Under the pieces are notes generated by a model. That model searched no databases and had not been told where the DNA came from. It saw nothing but the letters and a program-made list of their open reading frames with translations. 33,455 bases of DNA, taken from contig JALQZP010000006.1 in the NCBI GenBank assembly GCA_023258235.1, positions 1 through 33,455 on the forward strand, given 5' to 3'. Each line of letters starts with the position of its first letter. The first letter of the stretch is position 1. Shown in pieces: positions 24,933 to 31,452 of the stretch. The translations under genes were made by a program, and so were the position numbers. Source of the stretch: Terrimicrobiaceae bacterium. Its GTDB lineage: Bacteria > Verrucomicrobiota > Verrucomicrobiia > Chthoniobacterales > Terrimicrobiaceae.

Positions 24933-25857
24933 CTAGTTTCCCTTTGGGGAAGACGGCGCGGGCGTATCGAAATGCAGGCTTGATGCGATTTTACTCAACA
25001 ATTTCGGCGTCACTCCCTTGATCCGCAGAAGATCATCCAAGCGCACAAAAGGCCGATCGGCGCGGGCGGCGATGATGCGCTCGGCGAGATTCTTTCCAAT
25101 GCCCGGCAAGGCTTCGATTTCCTCTAATGTCGCGGTATTAAGGTTGATGCCTCCGGAGGGGATGGCAGGCTTGAGAAAGGACGCGAGTTCCGCGTTTTCG
25201 GCCCGCTCGACAGCACGATCGGAGGAAAGGCGATTCCAGTCCGTGCTCGCCCAGACTCCACGCCGCCCTGCGGCCGCCGTGAGTTCGATATCCCGGAGTT
25301 TGTTGCGATACTCCTCCCCATCGCTTCCGTCGGGCAGACGCCTCACCAAACCCACGGCTCGCGCCAACCCCTCCTCCACAAGAACAGTGGCATGATCCCG
25401 ACCGTCTGCAGTGGTAATAAAAACATAGAATCTCTCGGAAGCCGACCCGCCGCGCGCATCGGAGAAAGCTGTGTGCAGCGTGAATGGCTTGGCGAGCAAC
25501 TCCCGCGTGCGTTTGGCAGCAAGCTCACCAAAGAATTTCGCCTTGGCCATCGAGGCATTGGTGTCATCGCCACCAATCCCGAAATAGCGCCGCTGGGCCC
25601 GCAGGCGACGCGCATCGGTTTCATCATTCACATGCCACTCGATGCAATCCGCGCCATAAAGGCGGGCCGTCACCGTGCGTCCATCCGGAAGATGAACGGG
25701 AAAAACTATCGCCGTCGGCCCAAGGAGCCTGGACGAGAGTACAGCCCGGGATGGATTGCAACGGTTGCTCGGCGACTAATGAACCGAGCCCGAGGAAGGT
25801 TGCAAGAACGGCCCAGAGGAGTGAACTGCCAAGATGCCGGCGATTTCGATCGTTCAC
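24933..25857 (-). pseudogene. Secreted SNase-like nuclease with HhH domain, broken by a frameshift
   Basis: Two overlapping frames together make one protein of about 307 residues. The first (GTG 25857) encodes a signal peptide (LLWAVLATFLGLGSLVA) and IPGCTLVQAPWADGDSF. The second, in another frame, continues PVHLPDGRTVTARLYGADCIEW, with SNase active-site residues in RLYGAD, a Glu, and GRRGVW. It ends with a ComEA-like helix-hairpin-helix domain (INLNTATLEEIEALPGIGK, then LLRIKGVTPKLL). The break is at an A5 run (T5 on the coding strand, 25701-25705); four T's would restore AGT-TTT-CCC-GTT in one frame. The start lies 4 bases after the stop of the upstream Deg-like gene, so it is in the same operon. 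Either a sequencing/assembly error or a recent inactivation. Without the fix, translation could only start at GTG 25673. Confidence 0.8.
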
Positions 25858-25861
25858 AACT

Positions 25862-27415
25862 TCAGGGAGATTTTTTTCCTTTTAGACGCTGCAAGGCGGG
25901 CAAGGAATACTGCTCCACAAGCGCCTTTTGATTCGCTTCCACGGACGCTGCATCAAGAAAGACCGTTTTGGGATCCTCTTCGAATTCGATTTTATGAAAC
26001 CCCTTCACTGGTTTTTTTGCAGCCTCGGCTAAATCAACGAGGCTGCGCACAGGCTTCCCATTGACTTGAGTGACCACCAGATTTTGAAGTGGCTCGTAGC
26101 CCAGTGTTTCAGGCACAGGGAGGACCCGACCAAGGACTACGATCTTGCCCCTGTCCTCGGGAAGCTCATTTTGAAACGCATCGTAGTAAACAAGCCTCTT
26201 CGGGGCGTTATTCACCCAATCGTTACCCCACTCCTGCAAATACGGACGGGAAAGTTCCAGAAATACGAACCCACCAAGCACGACGTAATCGGGGGGGTGA
26301 TCGGCTAGTTGGGCATCACTCACCACATGGGCCCGATCGGGCACACTCATATGCGCAGGGATTTTTATCAATTTTCCTTTGCGGAATATGGTGAAGGTCA
26401 CCTCGGAACCGGGAGTGGCAACGGTGTTTGTGAGATGACTGAACAAGACACGCCCGAAATTCGGATCATCATAGTTTCCATCCTGGTCGATCGCTTTCCC
26501 ATCGACAGCAAGAATCACATCCCCCTTTTTGATTCCCGCTTCGGCTGCGGAACCATGAGGCGAAACCTCGTTCACATAAACTCCGCCGGGCTCCTTAAGG
26601 CCAATAAAACGCCGGAATTGCGGGTCGCGCAGTGAAGAAAACGAGAGCCCCATTCGAGGAAAACGGGCTTTCGCGGGGGAATCCAGAAAGTGCCGGATAA
26701 CGGGCGTGGAAATCAGATCCGCAGACTGACTGCGCGCATCGAACCGCATCAACAAACCAACGAGATGCCCATCCGAAACAGCGGGAAGCATGAAGCTCCC
26801 ATCGCGCTGCTGGAGCGGCACCCGGAGCCTGTAAACAAGAAGGCCGATATTTTCCAACGGGTAGGGACCCACACTGATCGTGGTGATCTGCCCGATTGTC
26901 TCCGCAATCTCCCCGTTCGGCTCCAATTGAAGCACGGTGGCCTCATTCCCGACACGCAGGCTTTTCTCCAACGTCAAAGGTTTCATCCCCTCCAAGAATC
27001 CGGGATCATTCGGTCGCAGGAGTGCCAGATTGCAATCGTAATCCACCCGCTCCACGGTCGCGGAGGATTTCTCTGCCGTGGTGGCTTTTTCGAGTTCGAC
27101 GAAGTTCGAGTTCATCACCAACTCCGCCGTAACCAGAACGCATCCGCCCTGCACAAGAACTCCAACCCCCCGCCGACTGACGGGATTTTTTTTCAACCAG
27201 GGCTGGAAAAAATCGTAGGCCTGATTGGTGGAGTTCACGCGCAGGATCGAGCGCTCTGCCACCACTCGGCTGTCTTGAGTTTCATTACACCCCGGCTTTT
27301 CAAGCGGCGAAGGGGATGGTTCCGCAGCCGCATAGGGGTGGTTAAAAGGCGATTTTGGCTCTGCTACGGCCAGCAGAGGCGTGAGCAAAAGCAGGAAAGC
27401 GATTTGGCGAATCAT
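25862..27415 (-). CDS. Deg/HtrA-like pseudoprotease with PDZ domains
   Basis: 517 residues with a signal peptide (IAFLLLLTPLLAVAEP), a degenerate trypsin-like domain (about 50-235) and PDZ-like domains (about 245-360 with VSPHGSAAEAGIKKGDVILAVDGKAI; about 440-490 with VVTQVNGKPVRSLVDLAEA). Aligned to the neighbouring active protease, the triad His/Asp/Ser positions are Glu98 (VTAELV), Asn129 (YDCNLALL) and Phe208 (GSFMLP). All three are replaced, so it should not cleave. The overall layout and the IVVLGRVLP segment match its neighbour and the plant DEG9-like group, indicating duplication and divergence. Its start overlaps the stop of the active protease gene (ATGA), so the two are made together. 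A partner or regulatory subunit of the protease, or a periplasmic binding scaffold, is a reasonable inference. Confidence 0.88.
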   Translation of the reverse strand: MIRQIAFLLLLTPLLAVAEPKSPFNHPYAAAEPSPSPLEKPGCNETQDSRVVAERSILRVNSTNQAYDFFQPWLKKNPVSRRGVGVLVQGGCVLVTAELVMNSNFVELEKATTAEKSSATVERVDYDCNLALLRPNDPGFLEGMKPLTLEKSLRVGNEATVLQLEPNGEIAETIGQITTISVGPYPLENIGLLVYRLRVPLQQRDGSFMLPAVSDGHLVGLLMRFDARSQSADLISTPVIRHFLDSPAKARFPRMGLSFSSLRDPQFRRFIGLKEPGGVYVNEVSPHGSAAEAGIKKGDVILAVDGKAIDQDGNYDDPNFGRVLFSHLTNTVATPGSEVTFTIFRKGKLIKIPAHMSVPDRAHVVSDAQLADHPPDYVVLGGFVFLELSRPYLQEWGNDWVNNAPKRLVYYDAFQNELPEDRGKIVVLGRVLPVPETLGYEPLQNLVVTQVNGKPVRSLVDLAEAAKKPVKGFHKIEFEEDPKTVFLDAASVEANQKALVEQYSLPALQRLKGKKSP

Positions 27416-28854
27416 TTTTTGATATATTGTTCCGATGTCACTCCATAGCGCTGCAGGATCCGGGAGCGCGCTTCCTCAACGGCCTTGCGCTCCAATACAA
27501 GCGGTCGACCGATACCGAGCATTTGAATCACATAGTAATCCGAGGTCTTCGCAAAAGCGGACGCCACATCGCTAATACGGCGAATTTTTTGACCATTGAT
27601 TTCATCGACCACGGCAAAGAGGAAATCCTTGGCGTATGCATTCACCGCATCCGCAAGGATGTTGCTCAAAACAACCAACTGGGGCCGTTCCCGGTAGATC
27701 CCATCCTCGACAAAAAAATCAAAAAGGTAATCGAGCCGGAGATTTCCCGGCTTGTAGGCATCCATGAAGTTTTGATCCACCGGTTGAAAAACCAAGCCCC
27801 CGAAGACAATGAACTGGGGCTTTTCATCGTAGGCTTTGGACTGTAACGCAAAGGGCCAAGGGGCGCTGAGCGGCACTTTCACTTGAAGCGATGATCCTTC
27901 ACGAAGGATGTCCAGCGAGGCTGATTCGCCCTTGAACTTTCTTTCGACCACTTCTGTGAGAGGCACTGACTCCCCGTCGAGCTTAATCGTTCCATCACTC
28001 GCGATGCGGAGACCGTCGATGCCCATCAAAACATCACCAGACTTGATAATTCCGTCCGATGGACCACCCCCGTAGACGGTGCCGACCTGCACCCCGACAT
28101 CATCGTTGGGCAACCCTAGCGCCTTCCTTGCGGCGGGATTGAAGAGGTTATCAAACGTGAGTGCGAGATCCACGTAGCGATCATACTTTCCATCCTCCAC
28201 GTCCCTGAAGAATCGCTTCACGACAGGTGTGGGGATCATGTAACCGACGTTCTGAGCCACATCGCCGCTGTAACCTTGGAAGGCCACCCCTACGACCTTG
28301 CCCTTTTGCATCACCGGCCCACCGCTATTACCGGGATTGATGGCGGCATCAATCTGGATCGTGAGATGGGAATCCATCCCGGAATGCGAGTAAGTCTGAA
28401 AATCGATGCGCGAAACGATGCCGCGCGTAACCGACAGACGCTTCCCTCCGATGGGGTATCCGTAAACAGAAACCAAGGACTCGATTGCCGGAATATCCCC
28501 CAACTCCAAGGCTGTCGTTCCATTGAAAAACTCGGCTTTGTCGACAGAAAGCAAGGCCAAATCACAATCGTGTGCCACATACAATACTTTCGCCGGATAA
28601 GGTTTCGGATCGCCCTCCTTGTTGACCGTGAGAAAGCTGGCATTGCTGACCACATGGGCGTTCGTAAGAATCCGGTCGCCTTGCACAATAAAACCGGCTC
28701 CAACGCCCGACGAGACCTCACCGGGGCTCCACGGAGCCTTGTAGTTGGGCTCTTGGAATGTCGCCTCGATCCGAACCAAGCTTTCAGCGACCTCTGCGGC
28801 CTCCAGTCCGAGAGACAGGAAAACACAGAAGAGAAAAAGTGACACCCTTAACAT
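27412..28854 (-). CDS. Deg/HtrA-family periplasmic serine protease
   Basis: 480 residues. A signal peptide (VSLFLFCVFLSLGLEAAEVA) is followed by a trypsin-like domain with a complete triad: His67 in LTNAHVV, Asp98 in HDCDLALL and Ser177 in NPGNSGGPV. A PDZ domain (about 255-345, GGGPSDGIIKSGDVLMGIDG) and a second PDZ-like C-terminal region (PQLVVLSNILAD, then VVDEINGQKIRRISD) follow. The second region resembles DEG9-type plant and bacterial proteases more than DegP. The frame is open to 29223, but the ATG at 28854 begins a proper signal peptide and has AGGA just ahead, so I use it. A possible promoter (TTGCAC at 28889-28884, TAGCCT at 28867-28862, 16-bp gap) would give almost no leader. It leads the four-gene minus-strand cluster. 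Confidence 0.93.
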   Translation of the reverse strand: MLRVSLFLFCVFLSLGLEAAEVAESLVRIEATFQEPNYKAPWSPGEVSSGVGAGFIVQGDRILTNAHVVSNASFLTVNKEGDPKPYPAKVLYVAHDCDLALLSVDKAEFFNGTTALELGDIPAIESLVSVYGYPIGGKRLSVTRGIVSRIDFQTYSHSGMDSHLTIQIDAAINPGNSGGPVMQKGKVVGVAFQGYSGDVAQNVGYMIPTPVVKRFFRDVEDGKYDRYVDLALTFDNLFNPAARKALGLPNDDVGVQVGTVYGGGPSDGIIKSGDVLMGIDGLRIASDGTIKLDGESVPLTEVVERKFKGESASLDILREGSSLQVKVPLSAPWPFALQSKAYDEKPQFIVFGGLVFQPVDQNFMDAYKPGNLRLDYLFDFFVEDGIYRERPQLVVLSNILADAVNAYAKDFLFAVVDEINGQKIRRISDVASAFAKTSDYYVIQMLGIGRPLVLERKAVEEARSRILQRYGVTSEQYIKK

Positions 28855-28959
28855 TCCTGAAAGGCTAGCAGAGACCCGATCAAGTGCAATGCGAGCCTGC
28901 CGACAAATCCACCCTCGCCTTTTAACGTGAGAGACTGTTAATTTCACGGGGTGATTGAC

Positions 28960-31452
28960 ATGCAGCCAGTGCGCGTGCGCGCCAAATTTTTCTTCGAGGG
29001 TGACAAAAAGTTTTTCATCAAGGGCGTCACCTACGGTCCATTTGCTCCGGACGGAGAGGGCGAGCACTTCGGCAGCCCGGAAAGTGCCGCACGCGATCTG
29101 GATTTGATGGTCGAGGCCGGCGTGAATCTTGTTCGTATCTACTATGTCCCGCCGCGCTGGTTCCTTGATCTTTGCCAGGATTTCGGCATCCGCGCGTTGA
29201 TTTCGATTCCGTGGGCCGAGCATCTTGAGTTTTTAAAAGATGCCAAAATCCGCAACGAAGCCAAAAAGGCGGTTCGCGAGGGCGTTTCCAAAAATGCCGG
29301 CCACCCGGCGGTCTTCGGCTATCTCGTCGGAAATGAGATCCCGAGCACGATGGTTCGTTGGCTGGGAGCGCGTCAGGTCACTGAGTTTGTCGAGCAACTC
29401 ATAGCGATCGGACGCGCCGCCGATCCCAAGGCCCTGTTCTCTTACGCCAGTTACCCGCCGACGGAATACCTCCTTCCGCAGAACAGCGACTTTGTCACAT
29501 TCAATGTCTATCTACATCGGCAGGATGACTTTGAGCGCTACCTTGCCCGACTGCAAAACCTCGCCGAGGACAAACCGCTCATCCTCGGGGAGTTCGGCAT
29601 GGACACGATCCGCCATGCGGAAAGCGAGCAGGCGGAAATGCTTCGCTGGCACATTGAAAGCGTTGTGCGCGGCGGTCTCGCCGGCACGATCGTCTATGCT
29701 TGGACGGACGAATGGTTCCGGGGTGGACAGGAAATTTTAGACTGGTCGTTCGGCCTCGTCCGCCGCGACCGATCCAAAAAACCCGCTTTTGATACCGTTA
29801 AAACTCTCTTTTACGGTGAAGGGTCGATGACCTCGCGGGTCAAATTGCGCGAGTATCCAAAAGCCTCCGTTGTTGTTTGTTCGTATAATGGGGCCAAAAC
29901 GCTCGATCGTTGCCTGACATCGCTTAAGGAGATCAACTACCCGAGCTATGAGGTCATCCTCGTGGACGACGGGTCCACCGACAACACACAAGAAATCGCC
30001 GCCCGGCATCCTTGGATCAAAAATATCCGCCAAGAAAACAAGGGCCTGAGCTTCGCCCGAAACGTCGGCGCCCATGCCTCCGGCGGCGATGTGATTGTTT
30101 ATACCGACAGCGACTGCATGGCCGATCCCGACTGGCTCTACTACCTCATGGGCACGCTTCTCAGCGGAGACTACGCCGGGGTGGGCGGACCCAATATTTC
30201 GCCCCCGGCGGAAAACTGGGTTCAAGCCTGCGTGTCCGCTGCTCCGGGCGGTCCGAACCACGTCCTTCTCACCGATGTCGTCGCGGAGCACATCCCTGGT
30301 TGCAACATGGCGTTTCACCGCTGGGCCTTCGATCAAGTCGGAGGCTTCGACCCCGAATACCGCAAAGCCGGTGACGATGTGGACTTCTGCTGGCGCTTGC
30401 AACAGAGTGGCGGCGTGATCGCCTTTAGTCCCGCAGCGATTGTCTGGCACTACCGCCGCTTCACTTTGCAAGCCTTCCGGAAACAACAGGAAGGCTACGG
30501 GGAGGCCGAATCGATGTTACGATTCCAGCACTTGGTTTTCTTCGGCCCCACCGGCACGGCGAAGTGGAAAGGCCAGATCTACGGCGCGCCCCGCTTCACC
30601 TGGCTGGTCAACAAGCCCATCATTTATCATGGCGTCTTCGGCGAGGGGCTCTTCCAATCCATCTACCCCACCCCTCAATCCGAGATCGCAGCCTATCTAA
30701 GCAGCATCGAGTGGCTGGCTCTCACCCTCTTTGTCTTGGGCATCTCTGTTCCCCTCCCCTTCCTGCGCATCGTCCCCTACATCATGTTCGGCGGCACATT
30801 GCTCGTGGCGCTTTCCTACATGATCCATGCAAGACTGGAGGCGAAGCACGACACGATCCCCGCACGATTGCTGGTGGCTTTCCTAGCCCTCGCCCAGCCC
30901 CTCGTTCGCGGATGGGCCCGCTATTTTACCTGGCTCAAATTCAAGCGCACCCCGCCGGCCGTTATCGCCAGTGTCGAAAAGGATTTCAAACCCGCCAGGG
31001 GCAGCATTACGAACCTCCGCTTCTGGAGTGAAGACGGACACGGACGCGAGCGCCTCCTGCAGGAAAGCATCCAAGCCCTCGAAAGCGAAGGCTGGAACTA
31101 CTCGCTCGATACCGGTTGGAAAAATTGGGACGTCCAGATCTACGGTAGTTTTTGGTGGGGTATCCAAATGCGCTCGGTCACGGAATACCACGGCGGGCCG
31201 AAGTGCCTCACCCGCGTACACCTCCGCACACGCATGGTGGCTACGACATTCCTGCTTAGTTTCATTCTCTTGGGAATTCTCTCGTATCAACAATTTTTCA
31301 TTCCGGAGGCTTCCCTCTGGCCGTGGATTCCCTACGTGCTGTTTGAATTGTTCCTCTTTTTGAGAGCGCGCCGACTCAAACGCCGCGTCGCCGAATTGGT
31401 GGGCGCCGCCGCCGCCCGCTGCGGATTCACCCGCATCACCAAAGCCGTCTAA
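28960..31452 (+). CDS. Glycoside-hydrolase-like/GT2 glycosyltransferase membrane fusion
   Basis: 830 residues in three parts. Residues about 10-285 form a clan GH-A (GH2/GH5-like) TIM barrel: FIKGVTYGPFAP, GVNLVRIYYVPPRWFLD, YLVGNEIPS with putative acid/base Glu126, and ILGEFGMD with putative nucleophile Glu211. Residues about 300-560 form a GT2 domain: SVVVCSYNGAKTLDRCL, VILVDDGSTDNT, VYTDSDCMADPDW, GCNMAFHRWAFDQVGGFDP and GDDVDFCWRLQQSGG. The C-terminal third has membrane helices near 590-640 and 765-800. The protein probably makes or remodels a surface or periplasmic glycan; the polymer is unknown. I chose ATG 28960 (GGGGTG lies ahead) over GTG 28951. queA follows after 3 bases. Confidence 0.85.
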   Translation: MQPVRVRAKFFFEGDKKFFIKGVTYGPFAPDGEGEHFGSPESAARDLDLMVEAGVNLVRIYYVPPRWFLDLCQDFGIRALISIPWAEHLEFLKDAKIRNEAKKAVREGVSKNAGHPAVFGYLVGNEIPSTMVRWLGARQVTEFVEQLIAIGRAADPKALFSYASYPPTEYLLPQNSDFVTFNVYLHRQDDFERYLARLQNLAEDKPLILGEFGMDTIRHAESEQAEMLRWHIESVVRGGLAGTIVYAWTDEWFRGGQEILDWSFGLVRRDRSKKPAFDTVKTLFYGEGSMTSRVKLREYPKASVVVCSYNGAKTLDRCLTSLKEINYPSYEVILVDDGSTDNTQEIAARHPWIKNIRQENKGLSFARNVGAHASGGDVIVYTDSDCMADPDWLYYLMGTLLSGDYAGVGGPNISPPAENWVQACVSAAPGGPNHVLLTDVVAEHIPGCNMAFHRWAFDQVGGFDPEYRKAGDDVDFCWRLQQSGGVIAFSPAAIVWHYRRFTLQAFRKQQEGYGEAESMLRFQHLVFFGPTGTAKWKGQIYGAPRFTWLVNKPIIYHGVFGEGLFQSIYPTPQSEIAAYLSSIEWLALTLFVLGISVPLPFLRIVPYIMFGGTLLVALSYMIHARLEAKHDTIPARLLVAFLALAQPLVRGWARYFTWLKFKRTPPAVIASVEKDFKPARGSITNLRFWSEDGHGRERLLQESIQALESEGWNYSLDTGWKNWDVQIYGSFWWGIQMRSVTEYHGGPKCLTRVHLRTRMVATTFLLSFILLGILSYQQFFIPEASLWPWIPYVLFELFLFLRARRLKRRVAELVGAAAARCGFTRITKAV

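Follow-up and report, generated by a model that had tools for sequence, protein, structure and literature searches.

In a 33,455-nucleotide stretch of DNA from a Terrimicrobiaceae bacterium of the phylum Verrucomicrobiota (contig JALQZP010000006.1; hereafter the window), two overlapping genes on the minus strand, A (27412-28854) and B (25862-27415), encode a predicted Deg-type protease and its paralogue. The A protein (480 amino acids) comprises a signal peptide, a trypsin-like domain, a weak PDZ domain and a C-terminal PDZ_3 domain; in the B protein (517 amino acids), a signal peptide and a proline-rich linker precede a degenerate trypsin-like domain, a PDZ domain and PDZ_3. The stop codon of A and the start codon of B overlap in an ATGA read from the sequence at 27412-27415. 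The coordinates, strand, reading frames and overlap given in an earlier sequence-based note on this DNA, referred to here as the original prediction, were all right. The two proteins can be aligned over their full length with 25% identity (E-value 3e-31). A Pfam scan matched A to Trypsin_2 (2.2e-25) and PDZ_3 (1.1e-23), and B to PDZ_2 (5.6e-13), PDZ_6, PDZ and PDZ_3 (1.8e-30); at the threshold used, the window copy of B matched PDZ families only and gave no Trypsin_2 match. Among proteins of solved structure, the best relatives of A are the plant proteases Deg2 (4fln, 3.4e-83 over residues 21-476 of A) and Deg9 (5il9, 1.5e-78), which are likewise the closest to B; these S1C proteases share with both proteins the fold and the domain order protease, PDZ, PDZ_3. 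With its His-Asp-Ser triad, GNSGG motif, C-terminal PDZ_3 and full-length match to Deg2 and Deg9, A is a predicted Deg2/Deg9-type S1C protease. The signal peptides, recognised by eye, would place both proteins outside the cytoplasm, presumably in the periplasm.

The catalytic residues of A (His67, Asp98 and Ser177) align with Glu98, Asn129 and Phe208 of B, exactly as originally described, so that B lacks the triad of a Deg2/Deg9-type S1C protease. The same division holds in relatives. The triad is present in all 35 sampled copies of A and in 74 of 77 further copies, the remaining three being unreadable at two sites, and is absent from every copy of B (0 of 37 sampled and 0 of 77 further). Nearly all relatives have a full-length B, always without the triad, and every A that is readable at these sites has it; this difference is more than chance. 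As no B copy carries the triad, B is a pseudoprotease relative of the Deg2/Deg9-type proteases and no active member of them. Across the 37 and 77 copies of B, the Asp position is almost always occupied by Asn, and the two other triad positions differ between clades. Of 22 diverse B proteins, 13 still show the old protease domain as a Trypsin_2 match at E-values of up to 1 (best 5e-11). In an alignment of diverse B proteins, the invariant columns include no His, Cys or Ser, and a replacement active site is therefore unlikely.

The structure predicted for B has a complete three-domain Deg2/Deg9 fold. Its AlphaFold2 model, built with 43 relatives, has a mean predicted local distance difference test score (pLDDT) of 84.6 and a predicted template modelling score (pTM) of 0.81, with disorder confined to the signal peptide, the linker and the last few residues. 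The model superimposes on Deg9, Deg2 and a Deg2/Deg9 chimera with Z scores of 38-39 over about 454 residues and a root-mean-square deviation of 2.4-2.6 (38.9, 454 residues and 2.4 with 5ilb), which bears out the original claim that fold and PDZ layout are retained.

In a tree of 77 proteins, one branch (support 100/100) separates the 37 B rows from all others, and another (88/93) does the same for the 35 A rows; the branching order within the two groups is similar. A second tree, extended with Leptospira proteins and more single-copy forms, again recovers B as one group (100/100), whereas it does not clearly set A apart as a group from the single-copy forms. Since all B copies group together, the triad need have been lost only once in B, and this probably happened long ago. 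The ratio of nonsynonymous to synonymous substitution rates (dN/dS), obtained by simple counting from two sequences, those of the window and of L044, its nearest relative, was 0.037 in A and 0.079 in B. B thus evolves faster than A and is under strong purifying selection. Together, the triad survey, the tree and dN/dS support the view that B is a genuine pseudoprotease maintained by selection.

The pair recurs across Verrucomicrobiota. In the GTDB family of the window, 25 of 26 genomes contain PDZ_3 genes, nearly all of them two. A C-terminal PDZ_3 match was found in 219 of 384 genomes sampled from the class (about 193 with two matches, six with three and about 20 with one, by hand count of the table) and in 155 of 387 sampled from the phylum. 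Genomes with two matches proved, in the regions fetched, to have tandems of A followed by B, with a few exceptions in which the two genes lie apart; those with one match mostly carry a distinct active form (family f10 and others) or a pair split by contig ends. A scan of named genomes yielded 80 loci with B, all from Verrucomicrobiota by title (one as PVC group), and A lies directly upstream of B in 78 of these contigs, 77 identified by script and one (L064) by inspection, the remaining two loci (L057 and L073) being cut by contig ends. It had been proposed that absence of the pair from relatives would speak against a functional unit; this objection clearly failed, and the tandem appears as a conserved unit in which both genes co-occur, as would be expected of a hetero-oligomeric protease with a pseudoprotease subunit. 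An NTGA overlap joins the genes in 32 of 77 related pairs, and most others are within about 60 bases of each other. The matched production of the two proteins, suggested earlier from the ATGA overlap in the window, fits both this overlap and the repeated tandem order. Loci L137-L145 and L152 represent a separate form, an active PDZ_3 protease in single copy and without a B partner, which is common in family f10 and also occurs in G281 in addition to unlinked A and B. One B match (L056, 4508-5917) contains one in-frame stop.

A search of proteins in plasmid-type records revealed a further A-B tandem, with 14 bases between the genes, on the 350 kb replicon (chromosome II) of Leptospira interrogans (L154, 3343-6455). 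Its upstream protein has the triad and scores 551 bits with the A profile, and its downstream protein, with Asn at the Asp position, scores higher with the B profile than with the A profile (371 versus 199). We matched this tandem to LIC20143 and LIC20144, which have been placed in one operon (PMC7709667), from the replicon, the order of the genes and an adjacent adenine phosphoribosyltransferase gene rather than from sequence identity. LIC20144 was described there as a PDZ-only protein; in contrast, by its score here it is a B of full length whose protease domain is degenerate, and the two genes form an A-B tandem by position and profile like that of the window. The same study proposed a heterodimer for LIC11112 and LIC11111, encoded in an operon with an ATGA overlap, which may be another A-B pair. 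The Leptospira tandem also bears on a division of labour that we considered and rejected, in which the active site stays with A and the better PDZ domain is handed over to B. This fits the window pair, where PDZ_2 scores 49.4 bits in B versus 20.5 bits in A; the order of PDZ strength is reversed in Leptospira, and such a hand-over is therefore not general.

Because the pair recurs across much of the phylum and in Leptospira, B is very probably a working partner of A and no decaying gene. With moderate confidence, we propose that A is the catalytic and B the non-catalytic subunit of a single exported Deg2/Deg9-type protease system, in which B is a retained partner that regulates A, most likely within mixed oligomers. 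B would have been born by an old duplication within the Deg2/Deg9-type family and would have lost its triad before it spread; it would then have been kept as a partner made alongside A, with A doing the cutting. Exported Deg proteins assemble as trimers. Structures of Deg5 and Deg8 document this assembly in threes (PMC3640471). Most likely, B enters mixed trimers or larger oligomers by way of the interfaces known from other Deg proteins. Its PDZ domains and dead protease domain would serve there both as a scaffold and to regulate A by binding substrates or signals, in the manner reported for the inactive half of Deg7 in trimerization (PMC3473262) and for MamO in MamE activity (PMC4794232).

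Contact between A and B was addressed through six loci in which the two genes share a frame, so that reading through the single stop codon of A joins both proteins into one chain, longer by a single residue. For the L088 chain of 986 residues, modelled with 28 other rows, pLDDT was 82.5 and pTM 0.77, in a prediction that has no A-A control and in which the interface is not visible. By our own estimate, two confident halves of unknown mutual placement would give a pTM of about 0.5, and the model therefore seems to hold a confident mutual placement. Among the solved chains compared, none covers both halves of the fused model, which carries no weight against a complex. The originally suggested hetero-oligomer is thus supported by this prediction and by precedent, and physical contact stays inferred.

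Several known systems resemble the A/B pair. In AtDeg7-type proteases, an inactive protease half reportedly has its role in trimerization (PMC3473262); Deg7 is a single chain containing four PDZ domains, whereas A and B are two separate exported bacterial proteins of Deg2/Deg9 type. Plant Deg2 and Deg9 were crystallised alone as active proteases, in contrast to A, which has a second, dead subunit encoded alongside. In magnetotactic bacteria, the degenerate HtrA protein MamO activates the HtrA protease MamE without catalysis (PMC4794232), a pairing of protease and degenerate relative like that of A and B. MamO differs from B in its TauE-like transporter domain, metal site and magnetosome role; B has no TauE match in the Pfam scan, where only PDZ families were matched, and no magnetosome context. 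PflC of Campylobacter jejuni, a periplasmic, triad-less HtrA relative that serves as a flagellar motor scaffold, shares with B the replacement of Asp by Asn, but is not described there as a protease partner (PMC12222027).

In the one-contig genome G278, the genes are located at 2.03 Mb (A) and 3.59 Mb (B), and both are also present but apart in G281, G239 and G267. That both persist even where unlinked speaks for the partnership. Several observations, however, weigh against the proposed A-B system. Because B can live unlinked from A, their co-translation is not obligatory. One genome of genus g14 (G325) shows a B-like copy alone, and other families commonly have a single active form with no B. 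The pTM argument rests on one fused chain from one relative with six paired rows, and the mean pLDDT of the five fused-chain models ranged from 82.5 down to 68.4. In addition, AlphaFold2 may recall Deg homo-oligomers from its training, so the model does not separate A-B from A-A contact. In the MamE/MamO system, activation was found and physical contact went undetected (PMC4794232).

Some of these points fit a rival explanation, in which B acts beside A in the same pathway without forming a complex, as a stand-alone PDZ chaperone, scaffold or adaptor; co-expression of the two genes would then reflect a shared role in envelope protein quality control. In favour of this, B carries a signal peptide of its own and has both its PDZ and its PDZ_3 domain complete, several genomes retain it without linkage to A, and a lipobox-like N-terminus occurs in four B and two A copies of the sampled set, never in both members of a pair. 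Activation by MamO with contact undetected and the scaffold role of PflC point the same way. We nevertheless regard this explanation as rather unlikely, given the recurrence of the A-B tandem over the phylum and in Leptospira and a read-through model predicted as one confident assembly. That the old active site of B has taken on a different activity, enzymatic or ligand-binding, is quite improbable: the nearly invariant Asn at the Asp position would be unusual for a useless site, and MamO acquired metal binding (PMC4794232), but the invariant columns of B offer no His, Cys or Ser and clades differ at the remaining two triad positions. The triad loss and faster evolution of B could suggest a duplicate decaying towards loss, a reading that we rejected as scarcely credible on the old split from A, the full length across the phylum and the dN/dS of 0.079, the predicted fold also being intact.

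The A/B pair, read as partners, is a new and widespread variant of the known protease/pseudoprotease theme. More tentatively, and with somewhat less than even confidence, it may represent a two-subunit Deg machine in which A is catalytic and B an obligate, dead regulatory partner, a two-gene counterpart of Deg7 in Verrucomicrobiota and Leptospira that has so far been recorded only as separate, unrelated-looking annotations. Deg/HtrA proteases are usually viewed as homo-oligomers controlled by their own PDZ domains; if the proposed partnership is true, combining live with dead subunits would be a further way in which bacteria control these proteases. The annotation of some "PDZ domain-containing" proteins should be corrected to degenerate proteases. 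In the open-access literature, with subscription journals outside the search, we found nothing relevant on Deg pseudoproteases of Verrucomicrobia.

Downstream of B on the minus strand lies a gene with SNase-like and helix-hairpin-helix domains (24933-25673; HHH_3 5.3e-16, SNase 0.0013), originally taken for a secreted nuclease that may form a degradation unit with the pair. The gene exists; the start and signal peptide of the window's copy (region 24933-25871) are out of frame owing to one extra T in a T run at about 25702-25706 (five T versus four in L044), which is either an assembly error or a real change. It adjoins the pair only in close relatives, with unrelated neighbours in other lineages; we therefore rejected the nuclease-protease degradation unit, and the nuclease is a lineage-specific neighbour outside the A/B unit. 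In about 26 soil-type loci (L083, L084, L090, L098, L116 and others), a convergent gene downstream of B appears by eye to be Dop/PafA-like (Pup pathway). On the other side of the pair in the window, a divergent gene (28951-31452) encodes a family 2 glycosyltransferase fused to a glycoside-hydrolase-like N-terminal domain (Glyco_hydro_72, Glyco_hydro_2_C); at 97% identity to its L044 counterpart, it is more conserved than A or B.
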